From positions 1 through 33,366 of the forward strand of contig CALZJI010000103.1 of assembly GCA_945787615.1 (NCBI GenBank): 33,366 bases of DNA, in the 5' to 3' direction. Within the stretch, counting starts at the first letter, position 1. Every line of letters begins with the position of its first letter. This stretch comes from an uncultured Chromatiaceae bacterium. Lineage in GTDB: Bacteria > Pseudomonadota > Gammaproteobacteria > JAADHS01. Positions 28,162-32,874 of the stretch are shown in pieces. The translations under genes and the position numbers were made by a program. Below the pieces are notes generated by a model that did no database searches, was not told where the DNA came from, and saw only the letters and a list, made by a program, of their open reading frames with translations.

Positions 28162-29166
28162 ATGCTGGATTTCGCGGCACCGTTTTGGTTTTTAGCGCTT
28201 CCGCTTCCGGCAGTTGTATGGTTCGCGGCAACAAAGTATGCAGGAAAGACCCATTTGCGCCCTGAGAGACCGGCACTAGTACATCCCTACGCAGGACTGC
28301 TGACGCGGCTTAGTCGATCCAACGCAACATCCAAGAGGCAAAAACCTTGGCTATGGCTACTTGGCTGCACGGCTCTCGTCGTTGCCATGGCACGCCCACA
28401 GTGGAGCGATGCAGAGTCTGTCAACGGCGCGTTTAGTCGCGACATAATGCTGGCGGTGGATGTATCGGGATCGATGCGCGCCCAAGATTTCATCATTGAC
28501 GGGGTTGTCGTCAGCCGGCTCGACATGGTGAAAAACGTCGTCACGGCATTTATTCAGCAGCGCCACGGTGATCGTCTGGGGATAATCGTTTTCGCGGATG
28601 ACACCTATACGCTCGCTCCGATAACGTCCGACTTAAGTATTATACAAAGCCTACTCGAGGAACTTCAGCACGGCATAGCCGGAGAAAAAACTGCACTCGG
28701 TAGCGCCATCGCGCTAGCCGTCAAACGGCTCGAAGCGCAGCAAGACAAACAACGTGTGCTTATCGTGTTAACCGATGGAACCAATACCTCAGGAACGATT
28801 CATCCGAACACAGCGATCGCCATGGCCAAAGAAAAAGGGGTACGTATCCATACAATCGGCATAGGCAGTCAACGACGCGTAGCATTCCCCAAAGCTTCTC
28901 TTGAACAACCCGAACTGGTGCAAATGCCGTTGGATGAAAACCAACTTCGACGAATTGCCAGCGAAACGGGCGGACAATATTTCTTGGCCAGCGACAGTAA
29001 CGCCATGCAACGGATCACGGCAGAGATCGATCGACTGGAGACTCGCGAAGTCAAGGATGCCTCAGGCGGTCCGACCAGCGAGTGGTATTGGATCCCGTTG
29101 ACCATAGGATTAACGTTACTATTTCTGAGCCAGCAACGCAGCCGTGGCATGGTAGCACCGACGTAG
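28162..29166 (+). CDS. BatA-like von Willebrand factor A membrane protein
   Basis: 334 residues with hydrophobic segments at about 7-23 and 62-78, a VWA domain (about 94-285) and a C-terminal membrane segment (about 310-328). The metal-ion-dependent adhesion site is intact: D100, S102 and S104 in VDVSGSM, with a later LTDGTN. Bat proteins were named for Bacteroides aerotolerance and are thought to act with MoxR in envelope protein maturation. It starts 2 nt after the DUF4381 gene. Confidence 0.92.
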   Translation: MLDFAAPFWFLALPLPAVVWFAATKYAGKTHLRPERPALVHPYAGLLTRLSRSNATSKRQKPWLWLLGCTALVVAMARPQWSDAESVNGAFSRDIMLAVDVSGSMRAQDFIIDGVVVSRLDMVKNVVTAFIQQRHGDRLGIIVFADDTYTLAPITSDLSIIQSLLEELQHGIAGEKTALGSAIALAVKRLEAQQDKQRVLIVLTDGTNTSGTIHPNTAIAMAKEKGVRIHTIGIGSQRRVAFPKASLEQPELVQMPLDENQLRRIASETGGQYFLASDSNAMQRITAEIDRLETREVKDASGGPTSEWYWIPLTIGLTLLFLSQQRSRGMVAPT

Positions 29167-29177
29167 AGCGCGCCGTG

Positions 29178-30875
29178 ATGATGGCTGATCAATTGTACTG
29201 GCGAGAACCTCTTTGGTTGCTGTTGTTAGCCTTGCCCCTAGCGTCTCTTGCCTGGCAAACGCACTCGCAGAAGACGGAAAGACAGTTGGCGCGCTTTGCC
29301 GACCCCCACTTGCTACCGCTCCTCGTTCGAGGCCAATCCGCCACAACGCAAAACCGTATCATGATCTTCATGGCATGGTTATTGGCCGCTCTCGCGGCAA
29401 GCGGCCCGTATCTCGTTACAGAGGAATCCGAGCAGCAACAACGCCGCGCCATCGATATCGCCGTAATCATGGATATCTCGCCCTCGATGAACGGTGAAGA
29501 TGTCGTGCCAACCCGCTTGCAACGCGCTAAGTGGGAACTGAAAGACTTCATTACGCGGCTAGATGACGACGACGGCAGCCGCCTGGCGCTCATTACGTTC
29601 TCCGCCAACGCCTATATCACATTACCCCTCACCCATGACAAAGCGACATTTCTACACTTTGTCGACGCCTTGGACCCCAGCTTGGTGAGGCAAAAAGGCT
29701 CTAATCTAAGACGCGGCCTGCAATTAGCGACCGATCTTCTCGAAACGAGCAAACCGGACGGCCGCGCGATCGTTTTATTAAGCGATGGCGAAGCCCACAG
29801 TCCCAATAACCTCGACGCCGCTAAGCAGCTCGGCGCCCTGAGTATTCCGCTTCTTATTCTTGGCGTCGGCACCGAGGCGGGCGGGCCGATAATGAACGAA
29901 TCAGGCCGCTTTATATTGGAGAATGGCCGCCCCGTTGTGTCAAAGCTCAACCGCTCCGCGCTCTTGGAGCTGGCACACGCCAGTGGTGGCGCCTATAGCG
30001 AGCTGCAAAGCGACAATAGCGACTGGGCTCCACTGTTTACAAGGCTTGATACGCTATCGAGCTTAAATCCTTACGCGTTGGACAGCCGCAAGACCAAACA
30101 GCTTTTTCCCTGGCTACTGGGCTTCAGCATTCTCCTCTTTCTATGGGTCGGGAGCCGACGCGTGGATACGCTGGCAATTATCGTCGCCACACCGCTATTG
30201 GGTTTAACACCCGATGCGCTGGCGTCACCGTGGCAAGAACAGCAAGCCAGAGAAGCACTGCAGAGGGGTGATTATCAGCGTGCCGCGCAGCTGTACGGAG
30301 AGATTGACTCGTACAACGGGTATCTCGGACGAGGCGTTAGCGCGTATAGGGAGCATCGATGGCACCAGGCTCTCGACTGGTTTCAACACGCATTGACGGT
30401 GGCAACATCTGATGTTCAACGCGCAAAAGCCAGTTATAACAGCGGCAATGCTTTAGCACAATTAGGCGAATTGACCCGCGCCGCCGACGCGTTTCGTGAA
30501 GCGCTACGATGGAAAACCAATTATCCGCGCGCGGCACTTAATCTCAATCTGGTTGCCGCGGAACAACGTCGTCGCGGTGATGCGATACGAAAACAAGCCG
30601 AGCTGTCTGAACGGCAAACGACGCAGGACGCCCAAGCCGACGAAACAGACGAAAAAACCACGACCGGTGAATTAACGGTGCGAAAAAAGCGTAGTCAAGC
30701 GACTCGCCCGCAACCCGGGCAAGCGCAGCTTCCGCGCGAAGAAAGTCAAAGTTTAAGCGAAGTTGATCTACAGCTCCGTGGACTACGCGAAGACACTCAA
30801 ACCTTCTTGAGCAAGCGCTTCGCCCGTCGTGATCGTTTGGATGGTTTAGCTCGAACAGGAGACAAGCCTTGGTAA
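29178..30875 (+). CDS. BatB-like VWA protein fused to TPR domain (BatB-BatC type)
   Basis: About 565 residues from ATG at 29178. The open frame extends upstream to 29082, but that part overlaps batA in another frame and is not membrane-protein-like. Two membrane segments, then a VWA domain with the intact metal site DISPS, another membrane segment (ending near GSRRVD), then a TPR domain (about 355-475) with repeats such as ALQRGDYQRAAQLY and ALAQLGELTRAADAFREAL. The C-terminal tail is highly charged, rich in Q, E, K and R. In some bacteria BatB and BatC are separate. The stop TAA lies 10 nt before a palindromic repeat element. Confidence 0.9.
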   Translation: MMADQLYWREPLWLLLLALPLASLAWQTHSQKTERQLARFADPHLLPLLVRGQSATTQNRIMIFMAWLLAALAASGPYLVTEESEQQQRRAIDIAVIMDISPSMNGEDVVPTRLQRAKWELKDFITRLDDDDGSRLALITFSANAYITLPLTHDKATFLHFVDALDPSLVRQKGSNLRRGLQLATDLLETSKPDGRAIVLLSDGEAHSPNNLDAAKQLGALSIPLLILGVGTEAGGPIMNESGRFILENGRPVVSKLNRSALLELAHASGGAYSELQSDNSDWAPLFTRLDTLSSLNPYALDSRKTKQLFPWLLGFSILLFLWVGSRRVDTLAIIVATPLLGLTPDALASPWQEQQAREALQRGDYQRAAQLYGEIDSYNGYLGRGVSAYREHRWHQALDWFQHALTVATSDVQRAKASYNSGNALAQLGELTRAADAFREALRWKTNYPRAALNLNLVAAEQRRRGDAIRKQAELSERQTTQDAQADETDEKTTTGELTVRKKRSQATRPQPGQAQLPREESQSLSEVDLQLRGLREDTQTFLSKRFARRDRLDGLARTGDKPW

Positions 30876-32677
30876 AGCGTTACTTTAGGGCCGCGGAAAA
30901 AAATAATTGTCCAAAGATTGCGCCGGATTTTTGTTCAGATTCAAGGCGCGGCAAGTGGCGCATATTAGAATATGCAACAATTGCCGTAACGCAGAAGCTG
31001 AGCAAAAAGACAAGCAAGGTTGGGCAATTATTATTTTCCGCGGCCCTTGTGCTCGCCCTGCTATGGATGGCGTTACCGGCGTTCACTTACGCCGCCACGT
31101 TCACCGCGTCGGTCGATCGGAATGAGCTCGCCGAAGATGAGCACTTGGTGCTCACACTTACGCTCGCCAACAGCGACACGCGCTTGCGCGCACAGGGCGT
31201 ATCCCCTAATGTAGATTTAAGCGTTTTAACCGCCGATTTTGATATCGGCACACCTCGAGACAACAATCGCTTTAATATCTTTCGCGGGCGCGCCCGTTCC
31301 ACATCAGAGCTTATTATCGAGTTATTCCCGAAACGAACGGGAAACGTCATCATCCCACGCTTCGAAGTCGATAATGTTGCCACGGATGCAATCACCGTGG
31401 CCGTTAAACCCTCGGTTCACGGTGATACTCCGTTTGCCTTTGCCCGAAGCGGGATCAGTAAACCCGCTATTTGGCAGCGCGAGCAGCTGCTTGTCTACCA
31501 TGATGTCTACTATCGTGTGGAATTGGAAAGCGCCAAACTCGGTGAAGAAATCGAAACAGAGCCGACGCCTTTAGAACTGTACGAGCATTTTCGGCTTACC
31601 CGAACCGAACGTCAAGAACAACATAACGGGTTCACCTATAGCGTCGCTCGCACAAGCTGGACCATCTTTCCAACGGATAGCGGAACGCTGACCGTGTATT
31701 TTCCTGACACGTGGATTGTTACCAACACCGGCGAACGCATTCGACTCCCTCATCAACAACAAACCGTCATGGTAAACGCGTTGCCAGCCGATGTTACGGC
31801 GGACATCATGGTCGGCGTACCGGAGCTCAAGCTCACAACCTTAGTAGAAAACGCGACCGTAAATCAGCTGAACAGTTGGCGGGTAACGCTAAGGGCGCCG
31901 GTGCTCTCCACGACTGTGCCTGCACGACTGACGATTGAATCCTTGCCTCAAGTTCAAACCTATCTGGATCGTGGCCAACTCGACAAAGAGGAAAGTCCCG
32001 ATGGTGTCATCTTTACCAGTGACTACACCGTATCGGCCGTCCCATTAACAGCTGGCGTATTCCAACTCCCCGCCATCACCTTCCCTTATTTCGATCCACA
32101 TCGAGGCGAATTAAAAACGGCAACATTGAACGGACCTCGCCTCGCAGCCCAAGCCGGCAATCGTGTTGCCGCGACGACATCATTGCCCAACAACGCCTCC
32201 GCCGCGTTGTATAACGAGGCAAACGGTCCACAGAACAATCTCTGGCAGGTCGCAACGTTCGCTTTTGCGTTCTTATGGTTAATAACATTAATGCTTTCTT
32301 GGAAACGTAGAGAGGCTAAGGATGTTGGTGCAGGCCGGTCAGCTGTCTCCGAACTCGAGCCCGGTCCCTCCCGCGGCGCCATGCAAACCATGCTGCTTGA
32401 CGCCTTCAATAGTCGTTCGCTCGAGGAGGGGCTAATGGACTGGGAACGGGTTAATGGTCCTTTAGAAGACATACGCAATACGGTCCGCTCAGTTCAGCGG
32501 TTTTATTACGGCCAAGCTAAGGACATTGACGCGGAGGCTTTGAAACGAGACGTTATTAAAGCCGTCGAAAAGATACGCAAATCCGCGATCAATCACAAAC
32601 AACAAGAAAACCGCTGGTCACCCAGGGCATTTACGCCCGTAGAAAAACGTGCGGGGGACAAAGCTGTTAGCCAGTGA
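30869..32677 (+). CDS. BatD-like protein with repeat-derived N-terminal insertion
   Basis: A 602-residue envelope protein of the BatD (oxygen tolerance) family: an exported beta-sandwich region starting at ATFTASVDRNELAEDE, several immunoglobulin-like domains, a membrane segment (about 467-485) and a cytosolic C-terminal tail. The only in-frame start before the hydrophobic signal is TTG at 30869, overlapping the preceding stop. Codons 7-60 come from the palindromic repeat (30887-31047), which is open in this frame. Joining residues 1-6 (MVKRYF) to VLALLWMALPAFTYA would give an ordinary signal peptide. Translation may instead begin at GTG 31049 or ATG 31067, giving a short signal. Confidence 0.85.
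   Translation: MVKRYFRAAEKNNCPKIAPDFCSDSRRGKWRILEYATIAVTQKLSKKTSKVGQLLFSAALVLALLWMALPAFTYAATFTASVDRNELAEDEHLVLTLTLANSDTRLRAQGVSPNVDLSVLTADFDIGTPRDNNRFNIFRGRARSTSELIIELFPKRTGNVIIPRFEVDNVATDAITVAVKPSVHGDTPFAFARSGISKPAIWQREQLLVYHDVYYRVELESAKLGEEIETEPTPLELYEHFRLTRTERQEQHNGFTYSVARTSWTIFPTDSGTLTVYFPDTWIVTNTGERIRLPHQQQTVMVNALPADVTADIMVGVPELKLTTLVENATVNQLNSWRVTLRAPVLSTTVPARLTIESLPQVQTYLDRGQLDKEESPDGVIFTSDYTVSAVPLTAGVFQLPAITFPYFDPHRGELKTATLNGPRLAAQAGNRVAATTSLPNNASAALYNEANGPQNNLWQVATFAFAFLWLITLMLSWKRREAKDVGAGRSAVSELEPGPSRGAMQTMLLDAFNSRSLEEGLMDWERVNGPLEDIRNTVRSVQRFYYGQAKDIDAEALKRDVIKAVEKIRKSAINHKQQENRWSPRAFTPVEKRAGDKAVSQ
30887..31047 (+). repeat. Palindromic MITE-like repeat, copy 1
   Basis: 161 bases bounded by AGGGCCGCGGAAAA and its inverted copy TTTTCCGCGGCCCT. 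The two halves are imperfect reverse complements throughout, meeting at GCATATT-AG-AATATGC, so the transcript could fold into one long hairpin. A second, inverted copy lies at 32736-32874. No transposase is present. The size and terminal inverted repeats fit a miniature inverted-repeat element or a large palindromic intergenic repeat. The target duplication is unclear. The element lies inside the 5' end of batD. Confidence 0.75.
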
Positions 32678-32735: not shown

Positions 32736-32874
32736 AGGGCCACGGAAAAAAATAATGGCTCAGCTTCTGCGTTACGGCAAGTGTTGCATATTCCAATATG
32801 CGCCACTTGCCGCGCCTTGAATCTGAGAAAAAATCCGGCGCAATCTTTGGATAATTATAATTTTCCGCGGCCCT
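32736..32874 (-). repeat. Palindromic MITE-like repeat, copy 2 (inverted)
   Basis: 139 bases, the reverse complement of copy 1 with only a few substitutions in the central 95 bases. A stretch of about 22 bases near one end, present in copy 1, is missing here. Ends are AGGGCCACGG and CCGCGGCCCT. It lies between the convergent stops of batD and the TPR gene, where its hairpin could act as a bidirectional terminator. Apart from it, 32678-32937 shows nothing gene-like. Confidence 0.75.

Follow-up and report, generated by a model that had tools for sequence, protein, structure and literature searches.

Palindromic elements that lie in frame in bacterial genes have already been described, in Rickettsia (PMC10969869) and as single cases in Coxiella (PMC5896051). 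The available text of PMC10969869 describes the Rickettsia palindromic elements (RPEs) as palindromes of about 150 bp, found in frame in unrelated genes whose proteins they extend, with nearly half of the copies located within genes. In Coxiella burnetii, some QMITEs are in frame, one of them adding 33 C-terminal residues to enhC (PMC5896051, in the text available). Exceptionally long N-terminal Sec signals are also described in Gram-negative bacteria, in autotransporters (PMC2805444, in part). The accessible part of PMC5771137, from the open-licence literature, describes no in-frame insertion of a MITE or palindrome in a signal peptide.

The element studied here interrupts the signal peptide of a batD gene. 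Like the RPEs, it is a palindrome of about 150 bp present in frame in coding genes, here batD and two others. The likeness is one of description, and the large in-gene share of the RPEs is not seen, the three cases all being in signal peptides and using different element frames. For the batD family, moreover, a 3-bp duplication and an insertion sequence (IS) with the same ends are evident. With the Coxiella QMITEs it shares being a gammaproteobacterial MITE that is partly in frame, but no signal-peptide case appears in the available text of PMC5896051. The long autotransporter signals represent a common domain organisation (PMC2805444, in the part available), whereas that of batD is transposon-derived and such signals occur in single genes.

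The batD locus

The window (the whole stretch of DNA analysed, 33,366 nt) is contig C103 of a draft genome of an uncultured Chromatiaceae bacterium (4.06 Mb, 616 contigs, 85% complete). The gene row ahead of batD is of the bat type, with MoxR-type ATPase, DUF58, VWA and VWA/TPR genes (Table 1). An earlier note on this DNA had read codons 7-60 of batD as a stop-free repeat, and the inserted 162 nt are located exactly there. They comprise the element, whose first letters are GGGCCGCGG and last letters CCGCGGCCC, and a 3-bp duplication, the first base of codon 7 coming from the left TTA. Because 159 + 3 = 162 nt = 54 codons, a full-length copy keeps the reading frame and needs only the absence of stops. 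The batD start codon is TTG, not ATG.

The RNA of the batD copy with its flanks folds at -86 kcal/mol (z -10.9), and the hairpin begins 19 nt downstream of the first base of TTG 30869. Rfam covariance models gave no match between positions 30700 and 33000 at E up to 1. With the second copy downstream, batD is bracketed by inverted MITE copies, which could perhaps recombine or act as a terminator.

Table 1. Coordinates of features at the batD locus (positions of the window).
Feature	Position	Strand	Remarks
Upstream VWA/TPR gene, bat operon	29082..30875	+	Stop codon overlaps batD start
AGGAG, Shine-Dalgarno-like site	30857..30861	+	7 nt before TTG 30869; read from sequence
batD	30869..32677	+	Open frame, TTG start, 602 aa; PF13584, E 1.8e-17; start position conserved in relatives
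Extended signal peptide (putative), 75 residues	30869..31093	+	Cleavage before ATF suggested by relatives
Left target-site copy, TTA	30885..30887	+	Sequence and family flank statistics
Palindromic MITE, 159 bp, ISAzo13-type ends	30888..31046	+	Inserted after batD codon 6
Right target-site copy, TTG	31047..31049	+	One change from TTA; sequence and family flank statistics
In-frame GTG, codon 61	31049..31051	+	Alternative start after the element; read from sequence
Second MITE copy, internally deleted, 137 bp	32737..32873	-	Directly 3' of batD; flanked by TTA at both ends

The ancestral batD start in relatives

The repeat is absent from batD in three relatives (G002, G001 and G023), and in each the stop codon of the upstream gene overlaps the batD ATG (CCATGGTGA, CCATGGTAG and CCATGGTAG, respectively); the corresponding stop/start junction of the window is CCTTGGTAA. 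Their signals are MVKIKKEICKLVLLFLFTASSLA, MVGRLIHRALIAIALLALASPAWSA and MVARIAFLLLTLWSGNTLA, 19-25 residues long with ends placed by eye. In a fourth near relative (G024) the junction differs slightly, a GTG start coming after a separate stop. Removal of the element and one target copy from the window leaves MVKRYF, followed by M or V and then by LALLWMALPAFTYA. The genomes searched included only two of the same family and none of the same genus or species.

Because three repeat-free relatives share the start, followed by an ordinary signal peptide, the comparison indicates that the insertion after codon 6, between the n- and h-regions of the signal, is real. The earlier proposal that MVKRYF and the post-repeat sequence together made a normal signal agrees with these genes, in which the signal follows straight after the start. 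The comparison of batD 5' ends that the note had called for revealed the same overlap in all three, and not a quite different BatD start. Its remark that the repeat supplies hydrophobic residues was also borne out, by LLFSAAL, and lysines are added before the h-region. For the batD signal, hydrophobicity over 15 residues peaks at 2.48 with the element and at 1.70-1.85 without it.

A high-copy MITE family

An internal motif of the element matches the genome 274 times at up to three mismatches, while the reversed control gives no match; the family thus has about 274 copies in the draft genome. These counts and the fold z-score exclude a chance repeat. The family is short, present in high copy and without its own transposase, as is typical for a MITE. 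Apart from 24 matches located at the end of a stretch and 10 partial matches, which were excluded, 137 distinct full-length copies were analysed with their flanks; 68 have 159 bp, 30 have 158 bp and 21 have 160 bp. The 3-bp flanks are identical in 99 of the 137, nearly all being TAA or TTA, while 1000 re-pairings of left and right flanks averaged 54.9 and never exceeded 74. Identical 4-bp flanks were found for one copy. Since the 3-bp flanks match beyond the re-pairings and 4-bp flanks in a single copy, insertion by this family duplicates 3 bp of the target, at TTA/TAA. The flanks of 21 copies are discordant, one being TAA and the opposite one TTA; these may reflect misassembly, recombination between copies or something else.

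Selection on the hairpin at the RNA level is unsupported among the Watson-Crick pair columns of the family, where distinct single changes lead to G-U and to A-C equally often (50 each). Counted as cells, the same columns give 309 G-U and 122 A-C, figures inflated by shared descent. Two-sided Watson-Crick changes occur in 53 cells of 10 pairs, compared with 3-9 cells when the partners are slid; common ancestry within the subfamilies can account for a large part of this excess.

A class-wide scan covered 369 genomes, of which nine, including the source genome, had a match. A pattern scan of the contigs of other genomes found at least one locus; the BatD match of its genome has 28% identity and was left out of the start comparison. 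Several related repeats were also observed. Five loci in other genomes of the class (L099-L103) have a similar hairpin core (about 70-80%) and different ends, some apparently flanked by TAA, and perhaps form one family across the class, in which the core is conserved while the ends change. The locus L098, in a genome of another family (G053), is a shortened derivative that is flanked by TTA at either end and has 98% identity across 96 bp, pointing to recent transfer or contamination. At L213:4362-4538 there is another MITE-like repeat, about 177 bp long, whose ends are related and whose flanks are TAA, and several copies of the main family directly abut the end of this type of repeat.

The link to ISAzo13

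The end motif of the MITE has 339 matches in the examined stretches of the genome, seven of them outside MITE matches (some being one place seen twice). One led to a 1304-bp IS with TAA on both sides (L212:6881-8184, contig C602). Two open frames of this IS match PF07592 and the NCBI ISAzo13 transposase model NF033519 in consecutive parts, each by itself scoring below NCBI's 200-bit cut-off. No other PF07592 locus was found in the 85% complete draft, and a frameshift and a TGA stop disrupt this one; an intact ISAzo13-type transposase was not found in this draft. The MITE and the IS have their terminal 27-33 bp in common, at 85-93% identity, and the MITE core has no significant match to the IS interior.

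Which transposase moved the MITE? In the source genome, the profiles PF13359 and PF13340 have no match and PF01609 has five, each in a long open frame (474-527 aa). Two of these five loci (L091 and L093, both on contig C602) contain a close copy of the MITE end, and it was the copy at L091 that led to the 1304-bp IS. The 3-bp duplication had first suggested an IS5 (IS1031-type) origin, which was dropped in favour of ISAzo13. Members of the ISAzo13 family are reported to make 3-bp duplications (PMC10045372, in the part available). The MITE resembles this family in its terminal inverted repeats, in the TAA/TTA duplication of 3 bp and in the PF07592/NF033519 transposase of its genome, and differs in having just the terminal 27-33 bp in common with the IS. 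The MITE was probably mobilised by an ISAzo13-family transposase.

Other insertions in genes

The 137 insertion sites were joined computationally, and all frames of 90 aa or longer that crossed a site were listed, those with a stop inside the element being excluded from the in-frame count. Read-through of the element is seen in five frames (batD, L005, L112, L015 and L125); L015 and L125 were left out of the gene count, with no gene recognisable by eye. In-frame read-through in recognisable genes hence amounts to 3/137 copies, all in N-terminal signals, the two besides batD being in genes for apparently secreted proteins. L005 encodes a glutamine cyclotransferase (PF05096), with the element after codon 5 of the signal sequence; in the relative G002 the orthologue, preceded by the same upstream gene, starts with a normal signal. 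In L112, which matches Big_9 and Sortilin/BNR, MYLLKNL precedes the element and TSTHCLSVIVLVFFLPLATPIAVA follows it, a case judged from its own sequence. The element frame used differs among the three genes.

Copies of the family have on average 0.72 open frames of 6, and the three copies in signal peptides have 2, 3 and 1. That all three would be open by chance has a probability of about 3%, an after-the-fact figure with n = 3. Five further copies (L118, L157, L148, L068 and L175) cut the last 3-13 codons of apparent genes and two (L022 and L090) break apparent genes further in, with the stop inside the element in each case. The location of gene insertions mostly at gene ends fits the removal of harmful insertions by selection.

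The element in L005 encodes a strongly hydrophobic stretch (2.77), and the protein, as judged from its sequence, may have two hydrophobic segments. In L005, L015 and L125, one element frame encodes TLLVFLLSFCVTATIAY or a similar stretch, resembling a signal or membrane segment.

Weighing the explanations

Why would batD keep such an insertion? The gene order and start of the relatives, the target-duplication statistics and the IS with matching ends uphold the earlier claim of an in-frame mobile-repeat insertion in the batD signal, and the explanation that we favour, at roughly 60%, is a tolerated MITE in the n-region, with the long form made from TTG 30869 and exported. The very stable hairpin so near the start and the right flank of TTG, where TTA would be expected, weigh against it, and the dampening of translation that the note had suggested may occur. 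It is possible that the insertion instead silences or strongly dampens batD, the hairpin blocking elongation or being cut by RNase III, and that batD is becoming a pseudogene. The stable fold close to the start codon and the second MITE copy 3' of batD are in keeping with silencing. However, the remaining 541 batD codons are open and match relatives at 38-59%, all three N-terminal insertions are open and in frame, which a dead gene would not need, and the start region folded similarly without the element. Silencing thus appears unlikely. Alternatively, batD could now start at GTG 31049, leaving the repeat as leader DNA and MLALLWMALPAFTYA as the signal; this codon is in frame and the short form would keep a hydrophobic stretch. 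Yet inspection of the sequence before this GTG reveals no Shine-Dalgarno site, the short form would have no basic n-region and the codon touches the foot of the hairpin, while TTG 30869 has both AGGAG and the conserved stop/start overlap, making the later start distinctly improbable.

An assembly artefact, with short reads joined through a 160-bp repeat, would account for the locus without any insertion. The genome is in 616 contigs, many ending at MITE copies, and some of the 21 copies with discordant flanks might join unrelated places. Misassembly at batD is nevertheless extremely improbable, since both sides of the copy form one conserved gene junction and its longest exact stretch shared with any other of the 137 copies is 68 nt.

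The tolerated insertion would have arisen as follows. A non-autonomous, hairpin-forming MITE, moved by an ISAzo13-family transposase, would have entered a TTA in the n-region of the batD signal, duplicating 3 bp and preserving the frame. With no stop in the frame used, this copy would be read through, and it would have survived where an exported protein is presumably most tolerant of extra residues. Translation of BatD would still begin at TTG 30869, and export would use a signal of about 75 residues, with a basic new n-region (KLSKKTSKVGQ beside the h-region) and the h-region extended by LLFSAAL. Such selfish DNA would be tolerated as neutral or nearly so. A bolder proposal is that the family serves as a mobile, frame-neutral module of 54 codons that repeatedly builds extended n-regions and alters the export or expression of envelope proteins of this lineage, some insertions being kept as useful; this we consider very doubtful.

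Meaning of the insertion

The batD copy suggests a simple rule for the harmless entry of a transposon into coding DNA: the length of the element plus its target duplication should be a multiple of three, and the n-region should accept the insert. It also provides a caution for gene callers, by which starts such as that of batD would be trimmed. The three events in one draft genome form a natural series for testing the possible length of the Sec n-region, and the same series bears on whether export signals evolve in part from mobile DNA.
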